A stretch of 64,000 nt of DNA from Apophysomyces variabilis (lineage: Eukaryota; Mucoromycota; Mucoromycetes; Mucorales; Mucoraceae): the NCBI GenBank assembly GCA_002749535.1, contig MZZL01000409.1:1671527-1735526 (forward strand), in the 5' to 3' direction. Shown in pieces: positions 5,494-20,447 of the stretch. The notes below the pieces were generated by a model. It saw only the letters and a program-made list of their open reading frames with translations, was not told where the DNA came from and did not search any database. Made by a program: the position numbers and the translations under genes. The stretch's first letter is position 1; the number at the start of each line of letters is the position of its first letter.

Positions 5494-8421
5494 TCATGTT
5501 TGTTCCGCTGTGCAATAGAATATTTCATCAATTCCAAGGCTGCGACGCATTTGCATGATGGCCACCAATTCTTTGATCGCTTCCTCTAGGATAACGACAT
5601 TGTTGAGGAGCATTGACAACGTAATTTCCGTGCTTTTGTCCATTCGACGCGATTGTGATGGATTTGCCTTCGGTGCAAATGTTGCCTCATCATCTTCATC
5701 AAGATCCAAAATGGGTTCTTCCTGTTCGATAAAGGTGGATGGGAACAAAGGCTGAATGCGCATGTTTTGTGTCTTACGAGCATGTACTGCTATAGGTGAA
5801 AGTGGGTTGGCCATGATGGGATTGCTGTTGGTAGTAGCACTGGATGTCGTTGACGTAGCTGCTAATGAAACAAGAGATCCAGCAGCAGCCATTGCAGCCG
5901 CAGTGGTCGACGAGGAGAGTGATTTGGATGGATTAGGAGGTATGACAAAAGGCTGTAGCTTCGTTTGGCCGTTTTGAGTGGAGGTGGAGGTTGATGGACG
6001 CATAGACGGTCGGCGATGGGCCGGATTGGATACCATTGGTGATGACAGATGGGTAGAAGTAGATGCAGAAGGCGCCAAGGCTGTATCTGCTTCACCAAAT
6101 AGTAAACCCTTCCAGCGCTCTTCCAACATTTTGTCAAATCCGTCAACTTCTGAACGGTAATAATCGATCTGTTTAGTCAGGGTACGAAACAGTGTGAAAA
6201 ACGGAGGAAAAGATTTGAATTGCGTTGGCGCTATGATACGTGTAGAATATCGCTCTGTACCGAAATCTATGGAACGGTCATCCTCTTCGTCATTTTCGTC
6301 AATAGCGCTGCAATCAAAATGCGCATAAATATCTTGACTACAGATCCTGTCGGTATCTTCCTCAACACGGATCGCTGTGGTTTTACTGTTGAGTACGAGG
6401 ATATCGTCAGCTGAGGTTCGGTCACTCTCGGAAAAAGTAATCCATCCTTCAAGGCTTCGATATGGGCATATAGCCAAGGCAGATATCACACCTGTTAATG
6501 CTAAATTAAGTTCAGAAGATTGTGCGAAGAAATGACTGAGCAGGTCAAGCAATATATGAAGCAACGGGTCGGCTGATTTAATGCGATGTTTAAACATATG
6601 GGACCTGCATTGGTTTTGTACAGGCTGTTTCTCTCGGGCAATATCCTCAAATCGTTGAGCGTATTTGAAACTTCTTCGCCGCTCACTCTTGGATGTATGA
6701 CTGACCTTGGTATCTATACGATTCATATTTTGATAGCACCAGTCATTCTCAATAAACGCTTCCATGTCCTGTAGATATTCCTCATAACCGGTGGTAAGGA
6801 TATCCTCAGCGTGTGCATCGTCAATAGCAGAGACTAAACCAGAATACAGTTCGATCTCTCGAATATGATGAGATATAGTCATCAAGGATGTCTTTCCGCT
6901 GCCATCTAGCGCATCGCAAGCACTGATGTTTAGCAGTTTCAGTGAATAACGACAATGCCTTGTGATTAGCGTTTTCAGTAGCTTGAGTGTTGCAATGACT
7001 GTTGGTTGTGAATGCGATTTCAGACGACTGAATATCAAGTCTTTCAGCGTGAACCGCTCAGCGGTACAGTATGCGCTTTTTATACGATCGAAACTGATGC
7101 CGTCTAATAACTTGGAAGTGTTACCAGCCATGGGTACATCCGCTGCCGTCTTTCCTCCGTCGTCCTCGTCCATCAAAAAGCCCACAATTACATCTGCCAA
7201 CTCATCATGCTGCAGAGTTTGCAATATCAGGTCGATATAGCTAATCACTGCCACGGATGATCCATCTGCATCAGAGCATTCGAGAACGGTAGGGTATAGA
7301 ATGTTTTCCATGAAAATTGTTCGAATGCTTTGCAGAAGCCTGAAAGATATTTCAACATTTGGGCAGCGTATAAGTACATCCTGACAGAATTCCAGTAACT
7401 TGAGAAAAGTGTCAAGCACCAGTTTAAATTCCTCAGATGTGGAAGCTATTACACCTATACCGGATATGATAGTTCGAGAATCAAAGTCTTGGCCCAATAA
7501 ATAGGAAGATAGATTGGAGTTTAGTTCCATCTCGTCCTTGATAACCAATTTTCGGGGTAATTGAGAATAGAGTGCACCTAAGCCTGCAGCCATTATTGTT
7601 GCAAAGTCTGACTCCAGGATGAAATCGCCCAGCTGATTTTGCGCCATTTCCATTAGAAACAAAAGGCCAGTTCTAGCAAAGTCGCCCGAGCGTCCTTCAC
7701 GGTGGACAAACCGTAAGAGGTACGTAAATAACAGGAATTCATACTCGGGCTTTTTTTGGTTTGTATCGATCTGTGTCTTTTGAGGAGTGGTAAGCCATTG
7801 CTTGTCGTGAAAAAAAATATTCAGAAGCGCCGGAAATCCGTAAATCTTTGAGCATATGATGTACATTAAGTCTACGAGATCTTCATGATAAAAATCGCTC
7901 TGATACTCGTCCAACACGCAGAACCGCAGCAATTTGATTGTAGGCTTATGGATAGCATTGTGTACTAAAAAACAATCGTCCAACAGGTCCACCATACTGG
8001 CAATTGTCCGAATGGCTTCGCCCCGAATTCCTGTCGGATAGTCGGCCTTTTCGGATACGTTGACCAGATACTGTAGTACTCCATTCTTTAAGAAATATTC
8101 CATACACACACCAGTTGTGTTATCTTCTTGTCGTGCTTCCTCATCTACTAGCATATCAACCATTTGACGAAGTTTGCTGGGGATTTCTGTTTGTTCTACA
8201 TGGACATTGGTTTTCCTATCCTCCATTACAAACAAGTTCTACGCAGATTAGACAGTTAACGCTGTGAATATAAAGGCATTTTTTTCCGGCGCCTAGCTTC
8301 AGGTTTTGCAACTTACATGTACATAATCCCAACACTTATGGAACTTGGCTAGTTGCATGGCGCTTGTAGGTTGCGCCTTTGCAGGAACAATCCTTTTCTT
8401 AAATTTAGCAAAATAATCCAT
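5494..8421 (-). CDS. FHF-complex Hook-interacting protein (FHIP / RAI16-like)
   Basis: FHIP proteins (FAM160/RAI16-like) join FTS and Hook in the FHF complex that links early endosomes or other cargo to dynein; fungi use the complex for long-range hyphal endosome transport. Exon 1 (8317-8421, 35 codons) starts MDYFAKFKKRIVPAK; a 78-nt intron (8239-8316, GTAAGT donor) leads in phase 0 to a 914-codon exon. The protein is about 949 aa. Diagnostic blocks are IPSKLRQMVDMLVDEEAR and GVCMEYFLKNGVLQYLV near the N-terminus, an alpha-helical middle, a Ser/Thr/Ala-rich low-complexity linker (about residues 750-860) and the C-terminal MLLNNVVILEEAIKELVAIM helix typical of the family. The long exon also opens in frame at a TTG codon, which I reject as start because the spliced ATG exon restores the family N-terminus. 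Confidence 0.88.
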
Positions 8422-8997: not shown

Positions 8998-11900
8998 CTA
9001 TGCTATTTCAATGCTTTCTACAAGGCCCTCACCAAATCTTTCGATTTCGGAAAGGATGGCTGCAAAGTTGGGTGCTGCTAACTTTAGGATTTCACCAGAT
9101 TCACTGGAAGGTTTCTAATACGAGCAATTAGCATTTTAAAAAACACTCGGAATATACTCACCAAGGTCCCTTTCTTGCTCATATCAACCGGGATGCTGTT
9201 ATACCCTAATCTTAACTTCCATAGCTGTGGTGTGGTCTTGGCCGGATTCCAAACTAGCGCTATCTTATCACCACCATACTTATCGTAAAAGACCAAAAGA
9301 AGATCGCCATAGGTATTCTGACCAGAAGATTTAGTTCATCTCATTACGAAACTACAACTACTCACCTCAATGTCCTTAACAAAATCAGCGACAGGATCAA
9401 ACTGTACGTACACCTTGTCGCCTAGTTCAGAAGTACTCTCTTGAGTTAAAGATAGGTATTTCTGGTTCGGATGCAGATTTTGAAAGTATCGCGTGCATCG
9501 CTCTGGATTAAGTTGAATCACCGCACTGTAGTCTTGCATTGGCGTTACGAAAAGTCGCTATTGCATATTGAGCCCTGTGCAAAACTTGCTACGGCTATCT
9601 ATTACCTTAATATTTTTCTCTTCGCCAGATTGAATAATTTCGTCTAAAACTGTACAAGATGCTCTTGCTAATGCCTGAATACGGCTAGCCACTACTTTAC
9701 AGGGCTTTGAATATGTCCATCGTAACCCATCCAGGTCTTTTGTTGTCGCCACAATGAATGCACCATGTGTAATCTTAGGATTTTGGCTACGTAGACGAGC
9801 AAAGCGTTCCATAATCGTATCACGATCGCTTGCTGTCATCTCGCCTTCGATATCCACAATCAAAGGCGTGTTTTGCCAGTCCCAAGTAGCTAGGAGTCCT
9901 AGAACACGGGCAAATCCAGTAAAAGCATTCACCGCTGGTGCCCATGGATGTGATTCCACAAAAGTGTATGCGCAAATCAGCTCAATTAACTCTTCCGATA
10001 CGTGATTTGTCAAAAGGTGAGCACCAAACCATCGTTTAATAAGTCGCATAGTTGGTGAGAATGCCGTAGATCGCGCACATAGTGCCTGTATGGCGAATGT
10101 ATGTCGCTGCTTATAATGGAAAATGCGCTCATATTTTTCCAAAGCCCGCTGCGCTAACTCTTTCTTGGCCTTGGACTCCGTTTTGCTAGTGATAATCTTT
10201 TCCAACAATTCCTTCTCCTGATCTAAATGGATATGACATCGGAAAACAAATCCACTGTAGTAAACATCAACCCAGCCTCGGATGGCCAATTCATTTTTTT
10301 CCCAGACGTTGTCGACCACAACAGATGCATGACCATATCTTGCCTTTATCTCCTCAGACATCTTTAAGTAAAAAGCATGTTTCACTTTTTGGACTGCAGG
10401 AAGATCGTCAGGCCATTTGCTAGACCTTTCAAGTTGAACAATGACATCGATGGCTTCTATGTAGCGTGCTGAGGTAGGATATAACGTAATATTGTCGAAA
10501 TCGGTCGGGTGAGGTAAGAGAGGAGATGCTTGTCGTAGACTGGAAGAAGCAGGATAAATATTTCCGATAAGAATAGGTAAAGCGTCGTCAACAGAGCGAA
10601 CCAGTTTCGCGAATTCAGTGTAGGCTGTCATGACGGGCTGAAAGCCAGCAATTGCAAGATCTTGACTAAATAAGCTGCTTGGCACTGTTTTGGCATAGTT
10701 GATGTATGGATACAGTTGACCAGCCCAATACTGCACGTTTTCTATCGACACATCCAAATGTAACTGAAGCAAATAAGACACAATCTTTCGAACGATCAAG
10801 GTCCTGTTTTCGTATCCTTTAGTTTCCCAAACGACGCTTTCCAAAATGCTGCCATCCTTAAAGCGACGAAGCTCGGCTTTTTTGCCCCAAAATTCTCTGA
10901 ACTCTTTCGCTTCTTGGACCTGTTGCGCATCCGGTCCCTGATCCACAAGTCGTGCTGCGTTGTCAGAGTTAAGAACAAGCCCAACTGTGACCGTCACGTT
11001 CTCATCAAAGCTAGGAGCTGATTCACTGATTTGCCACGTTGCTGGCGCAGTGTATTGAACAGAAATTAATTCCGCTCGATTGCTAAGACCCCTTTTCATG
11101 ACCTCGCCAAGCTTTTTAGCAAAAAAAGCATGATAGCTGGGATAATCAGCTTCGATTGCGCCATCATACTGTTTGATACGTGAGTTAGGGAGCGATAATC
11201 TACAAATCGAGTTAATTTGAACTAGTAATCATAGAACGGAGTAATAGTATACCTGAAAACGTTGTCAAAACGCATTTTCATGTCGTTAACGTTTTTCAGA
11301 AACAACGGTTCAAATCTGTCAGCCGTATCGTTGAAATATTTCATTGCTAACTTCGCTTCATATTGCACCTAATCCGTTTCCATGAGACAATTATCATTGA
11401 ATATTCTGTACTTCTTTTTTACCTGTAGGATCGTAGATAGATTCACTCTGGCAGCAAGATTAAGAGTACCCGAAGGGTCAACGATAGCAACGTCGTAATT
11501 GGCCATAAATGATTCAGCAGAAAACTGCGGTTTATAAGATATGCGGTATGTCCATGAAACCCCATCATTCACACCTACCTCTTCGTTCTCCGAGCGGCCA
11601 ATGAAAACAGGCTGCTTTGCAAAATCATGGCTAGCTATGTACAGAAACGTTGAGGACCACTACATTCGCACGTAATAATCGCTTACCAATAAAATCAATA
11701 GTTCCCCGTAAAAGTTGATAGGAGCTATGGCTAGGTGATAGTTTCTTTCCTCCGCCTGGTCCACCGCCTTGTAACAGATATCCCATAAGCATAGCAAAAA
11801 GGAATGAACTAAATCCAGATCCTGTCTGCTCTTCTCTTGCTAATCCACGTTGAAATAGCCAAGTTCTTGCCAAAATGATCGCGTCTTTAAATGCCGGGGT

Positions 11901-13233
11901 ATTTTTGCTATGCTGATAGAGAAATGCAAGATTTGCTGTAAAAGTTGAATCAGTGAGGACAGATGCATTATACTGAGGAGTAGGTTTCAGTGCGGTTGCT
12001 TCAGATTCCTCTTTTGGACGGACGTTGTTGCGTCCAGGAGCGAGTCGTTGAACACGAAATACATCATTGGCGATACTTGGTAGAATCCGAATAATACACC
12101 GAGACTTCGTGAAGTCCAACTCAGACTTGTCTACATTCAGCTTAAGTACAAAAGACAAAAATTTTCTATGACTTTACCTCCAGATGGCTTCACTAGTAAT
12201 ACGGGCTTGCGAATGTCTCCATTAAACGTGGAAAATTCCAGATTGAAGCCTGCTTTTGAGTCTTTGATAGCTTTGCCCAGCACAGCCAAATAGCACGATC
12301 GCTTATGAAAGTAACGGTTATTCATGTGATCTTTCTCTTGGAAAATAGACTATTGTTACTGTTAGCCATCTTTTGTACCTATCATGGTTTCCTTACCGAA
12401 GGCATTTCGACAGCAACATCGACGTTAAAGTACCCTTTAGTCTTGGTTACGGACTTTAGAGCATAACTTCCTACAACATGGACTGCGGTTGGCTTCTGAA
12501 ATTTAAATTTATACTGGGCGTCTACAGGTGGATGTGGCCTCAAAAAAGGGATACTGATTTTATCCTTCTTCTCCATTCCCGTCTGCAATGCATTCAACTA
12601 CCCGAACGCGTTAGTTAATCTCATAGGGGGCTTACAAAACCCTACCAAGGACTCTTTCCCATCAGGAATTTTCTCGAAAGTTTCTTTTAGATAATGAAGA
12701 GCCTTTTGCAAAGCCTTATGCTTTTCATAGTTGACATTTACTTCGGCCAGAAGCTCATCAATCTACCGTAGAGCGTCAGTATCAGTAGAAGTCGGGATAT
12801 AAATAGCTAACCTCGAGCTTGAACATATTGGATTTGTACAGCTCAGTTGTTTCTTTGAGACCTTCCAATTCACCACCCATCATTTCCTTCTCATCGCTCT
12901 TGGATTGCGAGTCCTCGGCATCTGCGCCTTCCTCACTGTCTGCATCTTCGTCTGATTGCTCCTCCCAGCCATCGTCGTTCTCTTCGTAATCGCTTCCATA
13001 TTTCCCAGTTCTTGCAGCTTCCATGAGATCTTCGTCATCGTCTCCAATGTAATCGCTCTGCTCATCGCTTTCTTCATTTACTGATCGCTTAATGAGCTCA
13101 TCAGGCTTGGTTTTCGCGATCTGTAAACAAGTAACATAAGAAACAGCTTCTGCAAACCATACTGGGGTAATACCTTGTTTTGCTGCTTCTGCTGCCCGGA
13201 ATGCTTCAACTTTCTTTTCAAAGCTGGTGCCAT
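8998..13233 (-). CDS. UTP22: nucleolar protein Nrap/NOL6 (Utp22)
   Basis: Utp22 (human NOL6) is a large nucleolar protein of the UTP-C module that binds Rrp7 and casein kinase 2 in the SSU processome; its fold is a catalytically dead tandem of poly(A)-polymerase-like domains. Exon 1 (13174-13233) encodes MAPALKRKLKHSGQQKQQNK; exon 2 from 13120 is a very acidic stretch with DDDED and EESDEQSD patches. Nrap-family blocks follow in order: FKLEIDELLAEVNVNYEKHK, GSYALKSVTKTKGYFNVDVA, ILARTWLFQRGLAREEQTGS, a 513-codon exon with KKAELRRFKDGSILESVVWE, and NPAKTTPQLWKLRLGYNSIP. The final exon (AAPNFAAILSEIERFGEGLV) joins in phase 0 and stops at 8998-9000. All inspected splice joins are in frame. Its start lies only 85 bp from the U6-LINE insertion. 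Confidence 0.93.
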
Positions 13234-13317
13234 GCTAGGTCGGGTAACTTGTCAAAAAAGTGGCAGATTCCACATCAAGTACTGAGAGAATTCCGTGACT
13301 GGATTTCCTGGAACATA

Positions 13318-13334
13318 GTCGCATGGCTTATTAC
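13318..13334 (+). repeat. 17-bp target-site duplication, left copy
   Basis: The sequence gtcgcatggcttattac occurs here and again, identically, at 15809-15825. The two copies exactly bracket the LINE 3' end and the U6 5' end, and their outer flanks differ. This is the length and layout of a target-site duplication made by LINE-type target-primed reverse transcription. Confidence 0.88.
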
Positions 13335-13961
13335 GTTTAAAATTTGTTGGTTTTATTTTAAGGTCTCTATTTGAACACAGCGTCTGTGACAGACATATTT
13401 GCTCGAGACAGCTCAAAAAGAAAAAGGTGGAATAAAAACCCTGCGGATGAGGCAGGGAAAAGGTCGAAGGAGTGAGGCAAAAGGAATATGAGGGAATAAA
13501 GGAAAACATATAGTGAATTAGAAAGGAAACTAAAAAGGAAAAAAGAGGGAAGAAGAGGGAGTCAGCTTTGATGTGCCTAGCCTGGTTGAGGAGGGACAGT
13601 ATCGAGCCATTCCAGCAGGGCCTTTCCCGGATCTGGGTCATGGTATTGTCGCAGATTTGATCCCGGATGCTGGTGAGCGTCGAGTTCGGCAAGAATTGTG
13701 CATACAGTAGGCCATAATTTGCGGATCTGTTGGTGACGGGGGGCAGATCTGGGGATCGAATGCGGGAGGAGGTTGAGGCAGAAGGACATTGGATCGGCAG
13801 TCTGTTGGCGGGTAATGCCTAGGCGGTTATGCATACGGAGACAGTCAATGGCGTGTTTCTTGGTGAGGTTCACATAGCCACAGGTAATGCAGGCCTTTTT
13901 CTTGCCACCGGGGAGCCATGCTAGTCGCCAGCGGATACACCTGCTGCGATCTCGTCTCGTC

Positions 13962-14244
13962 ATGGGTAACCACAGAATCGGGTCTATGCATAGCGTGGGT
14001 CGGCATGCTGCTAGGGTCCGTGCGCCAGTAGGGGCCGATATTATCGTCGTATGTGTGTCGCGCAGGTATTGTCTGATTGTCGCTCGGAAAACCTTGGTCG
14101 AGGCTTCTTCTTGTGGTACCGGGATGCTTTGCCAGACGGGTGTGCGGCAGAGTTTGTTCCAGTGGGAGGTCGAGGAAGAGAGAAGTAAGGGCAGAAGTGT
14201 GGTGAGTAAGGCGTCCTCCGGAAGATGTCGGGCACGACGTAGGA
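13962..14244 (+). repeat. 283-bp direct repeat at left edge of N gap
   Basis: This 283-bp stretch recurs at 15021-15303, apparently base for base, on the other side of the N run. Perfect identity right up to both gap edges points to one locus placed twice by scaffolding, not to a biological duplication. Confidence 0.9.
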
Positions 14245-15020
14245 NNNNNNNNNNNNNNNNNNNNNNNNNNNNNNNNNNNNNNNNNNNNNNNNNNNNNNNN
14301 NNNNNNNNNNNNNNNNNNNNNNNNNNNNNNNNNNNNNNNNNNNNNNNNNNNNNNNNNNNNNNNNNNNNNNNNNNNNNNNNNNNNNNNNNNNNNNNNNNNN
14401 NNNNNNNNNNNNNNNNNNNNNNNNNNNNNNNNNNNNNNNNNNNNNNNNNNNNNNNNNNNNNNNNNNNNNNNNNNNNNNNNNNNNNNNNNNNNNNNNNNNN
14501 NNNNNNNNNNNNNNNNNNNNNNNNNNNNNNNNNNNNNNNNNNNNNNNNNNNNNNNNNNNNNNNNNNNNNNNNNNNNNNNNNNNNNNNNNNNNNNNNNNNN
14601 NNNNNNNNNNNNNNNNNNNNNNNNNNNNNNNNNNNNNNNNNNNNNNNNNNNNNNNNNNNNNNNNNNNNNNNNNNNNNNNNNNNNNNNNNNNNNNNNNNNN
14701 NNNNNNNNNNNNNNNNNNNNNNNNNNNNNNNNNNNNNNNNNNNNNNNNNNNNNNNNNNNNNNNNNNNNNNNNNNNNNNNNNNNNNNNNNNNNNNNNNNNN
14801 NNNNNNNNNNNNNNNNNNNNNNNNNNNNNNNNNNNNNNNNNNNNNNNNNNNNNNNNNNNNNNNNNNNNNNNNNNNNNNNNNNNNNNNNNNNNNNNNNNNN
14901 NNNNNNNNNNNNNNNNNNNNNNNNNNNNNNNNNNNNNNNNNNNNNNNNNNNNNNNNNNNNNNNNNNNNNNNNNNNNNNNNNNNNNNNNNNNNNNNNNNNN
15001 NNNNNNNNNNNNNNNNNNNN
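14245..15020. other. assembly gap (776 Ns)
   Basis: A run of Ns inside the LINE. Because its flanks are the same 283 bp, the most economical reading is a false gap between two overlapping contig ends. Confidence 0.97.
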
Positions 15021-15303
15021 ATGGGTAACCACAGAATCGGGTCTATGCATAGCGTGGGTCGGCATGCTGCTAGGGTCCGTGCGCCAGTAGGGGCCGATAT
15101 TATCGTCGTATGTGTGTCGCGCAGGTATTGTCTGATTGTCGCTCGGAAAACCTTGGTCGAGGCTTCTTCTTGTGGTACCGGGATGCTTTGCCAGACGGGT
15201 GTGCGGCAGAGTTTGTTCCAGTGGGAGGTCGAGGAAGAGAGAAGTAAGGGCAGAAGTGTGGTGAGTAAGGCGTCCTCCGGAAGATGTCGGGCACGACGTA
15301 GGA
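15021..15303 (+). repeat. 283-bp direct repeat at right edge of N gap
   Basis: Second copy of the sequence at 13962-14244; it begins at the first base after the gap. The offset between copies is 1059 bp, a multiple of three, which keeps the LINE frame open and hides the problem from ORF callers. Confidence 0.9.
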
Positions 15304-15687
15304 CTTTCGCTTGTAGAATGGCTGTTCGCTCTTGCATGCTAGGTAGCTTGGCCATGTGTCGCATCACTTTGGTTTCGGAGTGGGGATGGGCACCATAGAT
15401 CATACGAATACAAGTGTTCTGAGTACTTTCGAGTTCCTTCAGCTGAGTTTTAGTGAACGAGACAATTGCTAAACCATATTCCAACTTGGGCCGGATGAAT
15501 TGGGCATACAGCCTGCTGGCTAAGAGGTGTGAAAACCCGGAGGGGTTGAGGCCGATGTGGTTGAGAATGCGCATGCTGGTGAGTGCTGATGACGAATTTC
15601 GCGCGATCAATTGTTTAGCATCTAATCGGCCATGGTTGTTAATTGGGACACCAAGGTATGCGAACGAAGAGGCAGCTTGTAGCAAGG

Positions 15688-15751
15688 AAAAAAAAGTTGC
15701 TCCGTAGAGCTGTCCATCTCAGGAGATTAGTGTCATCCTTGTGCAGGGGCC

Positions 15752-15783
<32 letters not shown>

Positions 15784-15808
15784 ATATGTGACAGAGGCCC
15801 GAAGGCTT
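15688..15808 (-). ncRNA. U6 spliceosomal snRNA sequence (retrocopy fused to the LINE)
   Basis: The minus strand reads a nearly full U6 snRNA: the 5' stem-loop (GCCTTCGGGC), the ATTAAAATTGGAACGATAC segment, the ACAGAG box, the U4/U6 stem region GATTAGCATGGCCCCTGC, the AGC triad and the internal stem-loop through AAGGATGACAC. A divergent 3' tail follows and ends in T8 (15688-15695), the normal RNA polymerase III terminator or oligo-U end. The 5' end abuts the 17-bp target-site duplication and the T-tract runs directly into LINE coding sequence in the same orientation. That layout marks it as a reverse-transcribed copy. Whether it is transcribed is unknown: U6 needs upstream or downstream pol III elements, and I could not confirm them. 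The core catalytic bases appear unchanged. Confidence 0.85.
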
Positions 15809-15825
15809 GTCGCATGGCTTATTAC
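15809..15825 (+). repeat. 17-bp target-site duplication, right copy
   Basis: Identical to 13318-13334 (gtcgcatggcttattac). It directly precedes the U6 5' end when read on the minus strand. Confidence 0.88.
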
Positions 15826-16049
15826 TGTTTATTGCATAACAATTTGCTTTGTTTAGAGAAATAGTTTGCGTCAACTGGAAATGATATAGATAAAGGGCTT
15901 GTGAGAACATTGCTTCCCCAGGATAATAATTTCTTACTTACCCAGATTATATGCACAAGAAAAGGTTGGGCAAGGTGAAAAGTCCAGTAGTTAGAAAAAT
16001 GTGAATTTAAAAGTATTGAACTTACCGTTCGAGACGTATAAATCTAAAT

Positions 16050-16087
16050 CCTCGTTACGAGGAAACCACATTCGTAGTGGCGATATC
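16050..16087 (-). other. tandem small hairpins at the end of the Fanzor-like gene
   Basis: The palindrome cctcgttacgagg (16050-16062) spans the stop codon of the Fanzor-like frame. A second short stem, ccac-n7-gtgg (about 16066-16080), and the palindrome cgatatcg follow. TnpB and Fanzor guide RNAs often overlap or follow the 3' end of the nuclease gene and are hairpin-rich, so this is a candidate omega-RNA region. It is only an inference: such small stems also arise by chance in AT-rich DNA. Confidence 0.25.
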
Positions 16088-18735
16088 GTTTTTAGCCGGA
16101 CGGCAGAATTCTATGGGGCGACCTTGTCCGCGCCAAACCGAGTTTGCAATATAGAACATGTTTTTTGCCGAATTAATGTCCCGTTGCCATAGTGTACGGC
16201 AGTGTTTGCAAACTACTACACCATGGTGGGACACAGAATCGGATGTGGTGACTTTCTCCAGCCCTCTCTGAAGGCAGCTGTTGCACACTTGTAGATAAAC
16301 CATGAGGGTACATAGGAAGCAAAAGACAACAAACCTGAGACGTGTAAAATTCATCGACTGTTGTTGCAATCAATTCCCCTTTCCTTTCTCTTCTCTTTAG
16401 CATTTTCCAACAGGTGTTGACTAACGCAGCACGCTTGCCCTTTCTTGACGCATGTCCACTCGCACCAAACATTGCTGATCCGAATACAATTAATGGTATT
16501 TTTTTTGCTTGCTTGAAATGCCTTTGGATGCCATTTCTTTGTGCTTGGGTGCGGTTTATTTTGCGTTGATCTGATTCTAGATTCTTGTGGCCTAGGTTAG
16601 AAGATTTCGTTAATATCACTTATTTCAGTACTTTGCACTTAGTCTCTGACCCTGATCGCCATTTCAGCTTCTTTTGTTCTCGCCGTTTCAGAGTCTTTCT
16701 CTTCCTCTTTCGTCTATTCTTTCGAGTCTTTCTTCGCCGCTGCTTGCAGTACTTTTTTCCACCGTTGACTAACACATTAACGAGCTCTTCACGAGCACGT
16801 TGTACTCCCTGGTAATTGTGGAAACGTTTCTCAGCCATGTCGGGGCAAAGCACTCCACGAACTGATGATATTGCTCTGATGATGCTGTTTTACAACTCTC
16901 TAAACCAGTCTCGATACGAGTGATACCCGCCGCATCCTTCTGTTTTTCGAGTTGCTTCGCTCTCCGCGTAAAGTCAGTCATGGCATAATACTCTTTTGTC
17001 GACACACGGCGTACTTGATGCCTCTGTGAGCCATTACCGTATGCAGCTGTGTATATTTGATTCAACCCCGGATCCACGGCCCACGGTTCGAACCACTGCT
17101 CGACTTCATCAATGGTAAAGTCCTCGAGGTCAATTTCCGTTGCCAGCACCTTTTCCTTTTGTTTTCTTGCGAACACTAGATTTACTGCAAATCCATCAGA
17201 AAGAATTCTGCATGCGAAACGATGATTTCCATTCCCGGTAAAATCTCCCAAGCTGTACGTATATATTAACACAGAGTGAGTGTTTGAAATTAAAGGTAAC
17301 TATCGCTATTTCCCATACTTATTAAATCCGAAACGAGTAAGATCAAGCGCTTCAAAAAATACTCGTGGGTATTCGCTTGGCTGTGTGGGTTCTCGAATGG
17401 ATAACAGACTTGCCAAAAGTTTGGCGTTTATTGAAACAAAACGCCACTTGCAACTTGGTTTTGGTGAAATCGAGAAAAGACGAGGCAGAGTTGTATCACT
17501 AGAACTTTTTTCGGAAGCAGCAACGATCTTATGCTCTTCTTCATAGGAAGACAGGATGTATTTTAACGTTGGAATATACGCGCCAGGAGATGCCGATATG
17601 GCTTGCTGCGTTGCAGGCTTAGGCGTCAGTGCCTCTAAATCATCACAAATCTTATCGACAATAGCCACTAAAGACAAATCCGGTTCAATCAAATTAGGCC
17701 ATTGAGGGGATCCATCAGCGATGCATTCGAAGGCATATTCCCATGCAATATTTTGTATCTCAGTTTTATTCATATTCTATATACGATGAAACTTAGTTCA
17801 GATATAGCAAAACACGATACATACCGGAAACGCTACTGACAGCTTATGTTCAACAAATGAACGCACCCGAGTTTCGAAATTTTCGACTATATTGTTTGAA
17901 TAGCATGTGGCCAGCAATACACAAGCTTCTGACAATACATCAGATGATCTTAGTTGTGTGTTGGGCGCTTGTTGCATCTGAGGGTGCTTGTCACGAAATT
18001 CTCTCCACGAGCTGCTAAGGTCTGTTGGCATTTTATCGTTTTTAGTTGTCATTGACTTGTTGAGCACAAGTTGCGTGACCGAATAGAAGAAATTTTGAGT
18101 GAAACAGATGGGTGGGATTACTTGATGATCAAGTATATACTGGTTGACAAACAGTTGAGTTCTTGCAATCACCTCTCTCGTATATTGTGAAAGCTCTTGA
18201 ACTTTTCTTTGAAGCTGATCTCGATGTGCTTCAACGACAACGGAATGTAGAGGAGCTTTTCGAGTGAATGTTTCGAAACCTTTCCCGAGTTGATCTTCTA
18301 ATATCTCCTCGGTCGACTTAGTGTGTCGCAGGCAACTCTTCGCTCGGGTACTTCTGTGTTCAGTGGAACCACATGCAGGGCATGGATTTGCTATAAAGGC
18401 CGTATGACTGGAACTTGCTTGCTTACTCGCTCGACCCGTTTTCTTTGCTTTTTTGAGCGCCACACTCTGAACTTCTGGCTGGCGCGTCCGCTTAGTACCA
18501 GCTATTGGGCATACTTTAAGCGTGATACACTATATAGCAATGTGCATTGCAAACCTTTGACTTCTCTCATTGGACACAGTTTCGACTTCATGCTTTGATG
18601 CCCCCAGAGTCCACAAGAGTTACACTGAGACTGATTTGCTGAGATTGGTTGCTGTCAGTTAACTTTCTTTTATGAGGATGTGTACGTACCTTTTTTTAAC
18701 CTTTCCTCCTCTTGTAGCTGCTTCTGTAATTCCAT
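16055..18735 (-). pseudogene. Fanzor-type (eukaryotic TnpB-like) RNA-guided nuclease gene, probably broken once
   Basis: Fanzors are eukaryotic relatives of transposon TnpB and use a guide RNA to direct a RuvC-like nuclease. Joined exons show a Lys-rich start (18735), two zinc knuckles (CNSCGLWGHQSMKSKLC and CPACGSTEHRSTRAKSC), and a helical middle. Then come NHRFACRILSDGFAVNLVF, a RuvC-I block VDPGLNQIYTAAYG followed by VRRVSTKEYYAM, a very basic linker, IPLIVFGSAMFG, and VDEFYTS ahead of CNSC...CKHC. The last block is RuvC-III WQRDINSAKNM. Introns at 18639-18689, 18502-18554, 17777-17824 and 17253-17318 all splice in frame. An in-frame TAA at 16620 can be removed by a 48-nt intron with a CTAAC branch site. 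One break remains near 16835-16850: upstream QYHQFVECF and downstream DMAEKRFHNYQGVQRA are in different frames and about 15 residues seem missing. The catalytic Asp residues are present. No terminal repeats of a host transposon were found. Confidence 0.78.
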
Positions 18736-19320
18736 ATCAGCGGCTTTTTTTTTCCTTTTTCTTTTGGATGTAGTCTTTGCCTGTCAAGGCGGTCAGAGAC
18801 AACATGAAAAGAAACCAGATAAGCGAACGCATATAAAACGCAAAATCATCCATGATGGATTCAACTGTTAAAAGAAGAAATAACAAGGAAGAAAAGATGA
18901 TAACGCTCAGGTGTACTAATATTAAAACCATTTTTTTTCTTTGTAATGACAACATTTATCTTACAGGACAGTATAAACTAACAGTCGCCCAAGGACAGGT
19001 TTCACATAAGATTAGCAGATTATCATTGACCTTACCCAAGGCTAAAGTCAGATAAGGAACGATTTGCCCATCGATATGTTCATGATAGTTGTCTGTATAA
19101 TACCGCGCCTTGCATCGAAAGTTATGGATCATCCTCATATACTATTTCATCCATTACTTTTGCTATAGTCCGTTACAATTCATTGAATGTGCAATAGCAA
19201 TGGTTCTATAAGCGTGCTTACAAGCGACTCGCAACAAAATTTTCGATGGGCAATTAAAGTTCGAATTCGCAAGAATAAACGCGGTGCATACCGGAATTAC
19301 ACTGACGAATAGTTACCCAT
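18736..19320. other. upstream flank of the Fanzor-like gene
   Basis: Spacer between the nuclease gene and the MITE. Lys/Arg codons in frame just upstream of 18735 (KTTSKRKRKKKAAD) suggest the Fanzor start could lie further out behind another intron, but no ATG-bearing exon could be joined convincingly. No matching inverted repeat to the other side of the gene was seen. Confidence 0.4.
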
Positions 19321-19597
19321 GTGTTCTTTTAGTGGAGGCCGTAGGCCGATCACTTAACACCATTATCAGAAAATTGTGGATCCAGAGATCGTGTTACCAT
19401 CTTTCCTTATTTATTCGAGAAAAAAATAAAACCATATAGTGCTAAAGGAATAACCGTATCATCTGAAAGGAGAGAATGAGCGGAGAAAGCAAAGAAAGGA
19501 AAAGGAGAAAGGGGGGAGGGAAGGGACAATCTCTGGATCCACTATCCTCAGATAATGGTGTTAAGTGATCGGCCTACGGCCTCCACTAAAAGAACAC
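19321..19597. mobile_element. 277-bp MITE with about 73-bp terminal inverted repeats
   Basis: The first 47 bases (gtgttcttttagtggaggcc onward) are the exact reverse complement of the last 47, and similarity continues, with mismatches, for about 26 more. The centre is A/G-rich with no coding capacity. It is flanked by AT on both sides. Removing the element plus one AT rebuilds a continuous copy of the surrounding repeat, as judged against its relative near 20.4 kb. It must have been mobilised in trans; the superfamily is not clear from the ends. Confidence 0.85.
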
Positions 19598-19598
19598 A

Positions 19599-20447
19599 TG
19601 AATTATATTTCACGCTACTCGAATGAATTTTGCGTCCACTGGAGGATCAAGTTGATGTAAGTAAAATGTACTGCCGGCATAAATCACTCGCTAATGACGC
19701 ATATTGTCTTATCCTTTAGCGCAAACTTGGTTCTTTCATCGACGCAGAATTTGTTTCAAAGTGGCGCAAAATATAATTCAATAAACTGTAGATCCTGAAA
19801 GTGCATCTCTCTGAATACCATGCATACCTAGATATTGCTCGTACAGCGCGTAAACCCTTGGCAGAAGGTAACCTCTTGCTGTACATACAGATATTGGACT
19901 CTATCTAAGTGTAAATATTGCATTGCTTGAAAGTGAAATGCCGCTATTGTGAGAAATCGAATGTTGCATTTTCATCAAAAGTTCGTCATATAAGCTTTGG
20001 CGATTGTCAAGTGACTCGGCGTTTTGTTCCGTGCTTATCAATACTATACTAAGTTCTATAACAAGCATTCAGTCTTTGTATAAAGGCCTAAAAGCCACTA
20101 TTGTCGATGATTTTCATCACTTCACAGTACTGAACAATTAAGCCTGAAGGCTGCTAGTGCGACAAGTACAAAAGAGGATTCACCAAAAACATGAAGAAGG
20201 CTTTTACGGCTACTACTTGGCAAGTGTCAGTAAACTTATCTGCCAATTGAAATTGATGTTTATTGGATAACATTTCGCGCTATTCTGAAATAAATTTTGC
20301 GTCCATCAAAAGATCCAACTTAGCGCTAAAAGAAGTAGATATGCGTCCTTATTATGTACGTTATGCGGGAACTACATTTTAATTAACCTCAACTTGATTC
20401 TCCAGTGGACACAAACTTCATTCGAATAGCTTGAAATATAATTCATG
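19599..20447. repeat. four-copy degenerate foldback repeat cluster
   Basis: A roughly 55-bp unit with core tgaattatatttcacgctac...ttttgcgtccactggagg occurs four times: forward near 19599-19655, inverted near 19735-19790, forward near 20265-20320 and inverted near 20385-20447. The copies differ at many positions, so they are older than the MITE inserted at the edge of the first. Their alternation suggests two decayed foldback elements or one element with subterminal repeats. No transposase is recognisable. Confidence 0.65.

Follow-up and report, generated by a model that had tools for sequence, protein, structure and literature searches.

Organization of the locus

The window, by which we mean the whole 64,000-nucleotide stretch of DNA analyzed here, carries a copy of the U6 snRNA and a truncated LINE that lie together between two short direct repeats. 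A DNA transposon, which we call X, adjoins this insertion on one side, and a Nrap/UTP22-like gene lies on the other. The features are as follows.

9558-13233, minus strand: Nrap/UTP22-like gene (Nrap_D3, D4 and D5 in the scanned ORF, 9558-11228)
13318-13334, minus strand: 3′ target-site duplication, identical to the 5′ copy
13335-15676, minus strand: 5′-truncated LINE (end of the RT region, C-terminal part and 3′ UTR; true length about 1283 bp with the gap collapsed)
13335-13416, minus strand: LINE 3′ tail of about 83 nt, common to SINE copies
14245-15020, no strand: 776 N between identical 283-bp ends (13962-14244 and 15021-15303)
15677-15687, minus strand: 11-nt filler, CCTTGCTACAA, between the U6 T8 and the LINE
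15688-15811, minus strand: full-length U6 snRNA retrocopy, ending in T8 and lacking PSE/TATA-like elements upstream
15809-15825, minus strand: 5′ target-site duplication (GTAATAAGCCATGCGAC on the minus strand)
15825-19788, minus strand: DNA transposon X, about 4 kb, whose 3′ terminal repeat abuts the insertion
about 19788-19760: left terminal repeat of X, its left boundary read by eye

On the minus strand the order is thus a 17-bp repeat, U6, 11 nt, the 5′-truncated LINE and the same 17 bp. An initial annotation had described this segment as a U6–LINE chimeric retrocopy with an intact target-site duplication, and its coordinates (13318-15825) proved correct. The two direct repeats (13318-13334 and 15809-15825) are identical at 17 of 17 positions and occupy the element's two outer ends, the LINE ending at 13335, right beside the second copy, as had been proposed. 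With up to three mismatches allowed, the 17-mer occurs at just these two sites in the window; in the shuffle control the mean was 0.09 matches, and one of 100 shuffles also gave two. The two copies belong to no larger repeat; membership in one was what the annotation had regarded as fatal to its reading. The bases GAC are shared, being both the first three of U6 and the last three of the duplication.

A run of 776 N lies inside the LINE. Once this gap is collapsed, 1,283 bp of LINE remain, and they align with the C20 copy of the same LINE at 96.8% identity (1,286 aligned positions). Because of this fit and the identical 283-bp ends, the N run is probably an unmerged assembly overlap, and thus a spurious gap. 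It could be argued that the scaffold gap joins unrelated contigs and that either the duplication or the chimera is false, given that the N run lies inside the LINE and the 17-bp repeats on opposite sides of it. However, the U6–LINE junction falls within gap-free sequence (15825-15021), both sides have the 283 identical bases and a copy of the 17-bp repeat, and collapsing the gap gives a length in keeping with another copy. We therefore regard such an artefact as extremely improbable. Elsewhere, a LINE copy (L052, C30:166658-168142) is repeated around a single N near position 7304, perhaps through the same kind of assembly artefact.

The domains of the Nrap/UTP22-like gene come from a scan of ORF 9558-11228, and the extent of the gene and its putative ATG (13233-13231) were set by eye. 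The insertion ends 84 bp upstream of this ATG (13231-13317) and may affect the promoter of the gene.

The U6 copy and other U6 loci

U6 is the sole RNA above the Rfam gathering thresholds in the window. The match to RF00026 (15811-15691, minus strand; 80.3 bits, E 8.8e-19) spans model positions 1-105 of 105 and the T run is a T8 at 15695-15688, bearing out the description of a full U6 down to its terminal T8.

Three U6 loci were found in the 38.7-Mb genome: the one in the window, L002 (C95:19969) and L003 (C116:298002). The search scored 48 of 3570 candidates and confirmed all three loci; very short or diverged fragments could escape it. In the alignment of U6 paralogues, which the initial annotation had proposed as a check, the U6 body plus T8 in the window (124 nt) was identical to L002 at 124 of 124 positions and 98% identical to L003. 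Upstream of both L002 and L003 we found ACCACAAGTTG and CTTTATAAA, which we take to be PSE-like and TATA-like elements, and neither is present upstream of the U6 in the window. On the strength of these common elements, L002 and L003 are probably the genuine U6 genes. Neither of them has the 17 bp upstream or LINE sequence downstream; a genuine U6 with such neighbors was the other circumstance named in advance as fatal to the template-switch model.

Since the promoter-like elements of L002 and L003 are absent from it, the U6 in the window is best regarded as a retrocopy. That it might be a third functional gene is disfavored by the lack of the shared elements and by the duplications on both sides. 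The recommended search for further U6–LINE joins found none besides the window locus. With a U6 devoid of promoter-like elements and one pair of duplications around both parts, the interpretation as a chimeric retrocopy is supported.

The U6–LINE junction

The U6 had been thought to run directly into LINE sequence of the same orientation. The orientation was confirmed, whereas the direct join was not, the 11-nt filler standing between the two. On the LINE side the breakpoint is sharp: three other copies, L005 (C20), L006 (C83) and L009 (C77), diverge from the window exactly at 15676 and continue in the 5′ direction as LINE. In a fourth copy, L012, the alignment starts slightly further in. The filler (15687-15677) is absent from all four of these copies and has no match in the 3′ flanks of L002 and L003, and the exact 11-mer occurs at the window locus only among the sequences fetched. 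Two candidate sources, a 9-nt match further 5′ in the LINE (TTCCTTGCT) and a 10-nt match in L088, were rejected as near chance by our estimate.

The identical 17-bp repeats lie outside both parts and none was found between the U6 and the LINE, which argues for a single event. An alternative is two successive insertions at one transposon end, a U6 retrocopy followed by a LINE. Such sites are indeed used repeatedly (see below), but two insertions are hard to reconcile with a single repeat pair located at the outer ends, or with the absence of U6 sequence at the LINE 3′ end; we consider this course of events highly improbable. In our best reading, a single event of target-primed reverse transcription, in which the enzyme switched templates to the 3′ end of U6, took place at the end of X, and we regard this account as a whole as probable.

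The initial annotation had offered two routes to the chimera, a jump of the reverse transcriptase to U6 or the copying of a ligated RNA. In the second, U6 RNA and a piece of LINE RNA would have been ligated end to end ahead of insertion, the product serving as a single template, as in the RtcB model for mammalian U6/L1. According to PMC13174262, the same gross product is expected by that route, namely a full U6, a 5′-truncated LINE in the same orientation and one pair of duplications. Ligation of two pieces predicts a direct join, yet 11 nt intervene; an additional piece of RNA might have taken part in the ligation. The filler slightly favors the jump over two-piece ligation, and we judge ligation unlikely.

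The LINE family and its SINE partner

The LINE protein has an RVT_1 domain, and its C-terminal part has a CCHC-like motif, read by eye. All LINE copies examined are 5′-truncated, the longest being about 1.7 to 1.9 kb, and no full-length copy of the family was seen among them, so its endonuclease is known from relatives only. LINE relatives in the same genome, at about 55% identity, have an APE-type endonuclease domain together with an RT (L087 and L088), and for the L087 RT the PDB gave a match to human LINE-1 ORF2p (E 3.8e-14). Among proteins (7999 candidates scored), the best named relatives within the best 120 of 240 belong to Rhizopus, Lichtheimia, Parasitella, Absidia and Circinella, all of which are Mucorales. 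This lends indirect support to the initial annotation's mention of an early-diverging fungus.

Two further observations concern these relatives. In L088 (3700-4900), the related LINE adjoins a truncated second copy, whose GTAGTG end is similar, in the manner of a tandem insertion. Four predicted Rhizopus proteins among the 120 best (P0046, P0091, P0101 and P0111) join a transposase domain, DDE_3, to the RT of a related LINE. We considered these RVT_1 and DDE_3 combinations as a sign of the same targeting, but they are a weak lead because the fusion junctions lie at differing points.

The last ~83 nt of the LINE are also carried by a SINE of about 340 nt (L089-L106), whose copies lie mostly beside transposon-terminus motifs. 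This common tail suggests that these ~83 nt may be the recognition element. The fold z-scores of the tail RNA (-2.3 in the window, -0.8 in the SINE, and +1.6 in L088, where the stretch overran the tail) were not counted as evidence. By eye, the SINE head contains a B-box-like GGTTCGATTCG. An origin of the head from a tRNA or another known RNA found no support in the four loci searched, where ARAGORN reported no genes and Rfam gave only two matches, both at chance level.

Transposon X

The insertion point is the exact 3′ end of X, which had escaped the initial annotation, as had the spurious gap. Matches to X in the genome comprise 42 rows, 24 of them with at least 84% identity. X has the look of an inverted-repeat transposon: TA at both ends, together with the left repeat, was found in the three copies for which both ends were read by eye (window, C88 and C78). 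When five other left ends were searched, the left repeat was present in two and absent from three (L084, L085 and L086). The three ORFs of X yielded no Pfam families and NCBIfam matches only far below cut-off; since no DDE transposase is recognizable in them, X was not placed in Tc1/mariner.

X also contains a Cys-rich motif, CPACGSTEHRSTRAKSCLRH, and its left ends vary between copies. Inside the left part of X there is a 75-nt inverted repeat (19318-19392 and 19526-19600) with 93% complementarity.

We rejected the possibility that X and the LINE form one element, as differing duplications separate them. The possibility that X is itself a retroelement using the same nick was also set aside, there being no third 17-mer at its left end in the window at up to three mismatches.

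Insertions at transposon ends

We read 24 ends of X, taken from the 42 match rows: 20 fetched 3′ ends and those of the window, L036, L037 and L046. All 24 have a form of AATAAACA-GTA, after which the sequences differ. In 8 of the 24 (7 of 23 without L046, a more distant X that entered through the LINE search only) an insert is present at the same base. Six of the inserts are LINEs (window, L069, L079, L036, L037 and L046) and two are SINEs (L064 and L074), each beginning one duplication beyond the X end. L036 and L037 are X–LINE units that have the same 5′ duplication and different downstream sequences; given the common duplication, they may represent one event, or one may have been copied from the other. 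By our arithmetic (about 40 insertions, 24 ends, 38.7 Mb, both strands), the chance expectation for such inserts at X ends is about 1e-5.

The association was also scored from the side of the inserts, using 83 bases around each 5′ junction and four forms of the terminus motif; a junction passed if it scored above all 200 shuffles. These counts are partly circular, as forms Y and a were derived from insertion sites, whereas X and Xleft were defined without reference to insertions. For form a, the site lies inside its repeat, since the bases after GTA are conserved too. The LINE sample consisted of 25 copies from match lists that included one of 43 rows, in which SINE tails and pieces of one copy accounted for many entries. 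The motif was detected at 16 of these 25 junctions, counting L055, where the boundary was hand-set near the motif and the duplication matches poorly, and L057, where about 37 bp separate the motif from the junction. The nine that failed are L051, L032, L059, L035, L043, L042, L053, L058 and L052.

Of 18 SINE loci fetched, 17 were scored (L105 was left out) and 15 had a readable head. Fourteen of the 15 passed, L095 being the exception; among the SINE loci, L090 and L091 seem to be duplicates of a single copy, L098 has its motif away from the junction, L089 and L095 are without matching duplications, and the inserts of L094 and L104 are those already listed as L074 and L064. The two loci without a readable head are L100 and L101, the latter with a Y-type end by eye. 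When the window was scanned on both strands in 40-base steps, scores of at least 26 were obtained at four sites, two of which are the ends of X itself.

Could the nearness of the LINE and SINE to X reflect passive nesting in repeat-rich regions, with no choice of target? Repeats often nest, and 9 of the 25 LINE junctions are without a terminus motif. Against this, the insert starts at the very same base in 8 of 24 X ends, mostly with different duplications, and we find passive nesting very unlikely. Instead, we infer from these sequence comparisons that the LINE and SINE act as a pair, homing to the ends of DNA transposons and rebuilding these ends, with the U6–LINE chimera as one product. In the window, GTA in the 5′ duplication consists of the last base of X followed by TA. 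Because the duplication begins with these bases, the end of X is rebuilt exactly: the insertion restores it. The restored end would be expected to keep X mobile.

Recurrence at one sequence with a fixed offset, as seen at these 8 of 24 X ends, is what characterizes target-specific LINEs such as Tx1L, which resides in the Xenopus transposon Tx1D; the likeness lies in repeated insertion at one sequence within a multicopy target. What sets the LINE of the window apart is that its target, a motif resembling a terminus, belongs to more than one repeat family and is rebuilt by the duplication. The Tx1 and R1 clades are given as the main target-specific groups in PMC4640811, and PMC8869645 refers in a general way to LINEs that target "other TEs".

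Discussion

The single-event account can be laid out as a series of steps. First, the LINE endonuclease would recognize a DNA transposon by its terminal repeat and nick it on the bottom strand, one base in from the end (the opposite strand reads ...AATAAACA^GTA). The exposed 3′ end, ...TAC, could then pair with the 3′ end of the LINE RNA, ...GUA, and prime cDNA synthesis; in the DNA, the LINE ends in ...AAATTTTAAAC, followed by the GTA of the duplication. After about 1.28 kb the enzyme would quit the LINE RNA, add or copy 11 nt, resume at the 3′ oligo(U) end of U6 RNA and run to the U6 5′ end. A top-strand cut would follow 17 nt downstream, within ordinary host DNA, and the cDNA end would be joined there, with a 3-nt match of GAC. 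Repair would leave the duplication, whose first base plus TA would restore the transposon end. The same machinery may move the SINE, which has the tail of the LINE, to the same kind of site.

In a more general form, the proposal is that a fungal LINE and SINE home to the ends of several DNA transposon families, nick one base inside the end, duplicate that base and leave the host transposon intact and mobile. U6 could at times be captured onto the LINE tail, and the chimera would then be a snapshot of how a SINE headed by a Pol III RNA could be born. We lean towards this proposal with some reserve.

How does the locus compare with known chimeras? It resembles mammalian U6/L1 (PMC13174262 and PMC4476161) in having a full-length U6 at the 5′ side, a 5′-truncated LINE in the same orientation and a target-site duplication. 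In contrast to the mammalian chimeras, the fungal LINE has a defined non-poly(A) 3′ tail, an 11-nt filler lies at the join, and the insertion is at a transposon end and not at the L1 TT/AAAA site. Short untemplated junction sequences are mentioned for mRNA chimeras in PMC13174262.

The MINE chimeras of Magnaporthe grisea (WEIRD-MGL, WEIRD-MgSINE and tripartite forms), as described in PMC2104539, are likewise from a fungus, combine a full-length RNA copy with a 5′-truncated LINE and have duplications of 10-20 bp. Their 5′ partner, however, is WEIRD, which has no homology to U6 according to unpublished data cited there (PMC2104539). The consensus switch site given there for MINE is GCC^A/U (PMC2104539), compared with CACCG^GCTGCC in other copies of the window LINE. 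MgSINE and MGL (PMC2104539) also provide a parallel for a SINE with a LINE 3′ end, which is ~83 nt long in the window system; unlike what is described for that pair, the LINE and SINE studied here also have the transposon-end insertion site in common. The nearest kin of the locus are the mammalian U6/L1 (PMC4476161) and the Magnaporthe WEIRD-MGL (PMC2104539) chimeras.

Among the matches listed for titles and abstract openings in the open-licence literature, we found neither a U6–LINE chimera in a fungus nor a LINE homing to inverted-repeat ends. The presence of such a chimera in what is probably a Mucorales fungus suggests that U6 is a favored acceptor for LINE reverse transcriptases more widely. 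If the homing of the LINE/SINE pair to transposon ends is true, it would make target recognition easy to test, since each duplication is composed partly of the transposon end and partly of arbitrary host DNA. It would also amount to a safe-harbor strategy, with a target that exists in many dispersed copies and that each insertion rebuilds.
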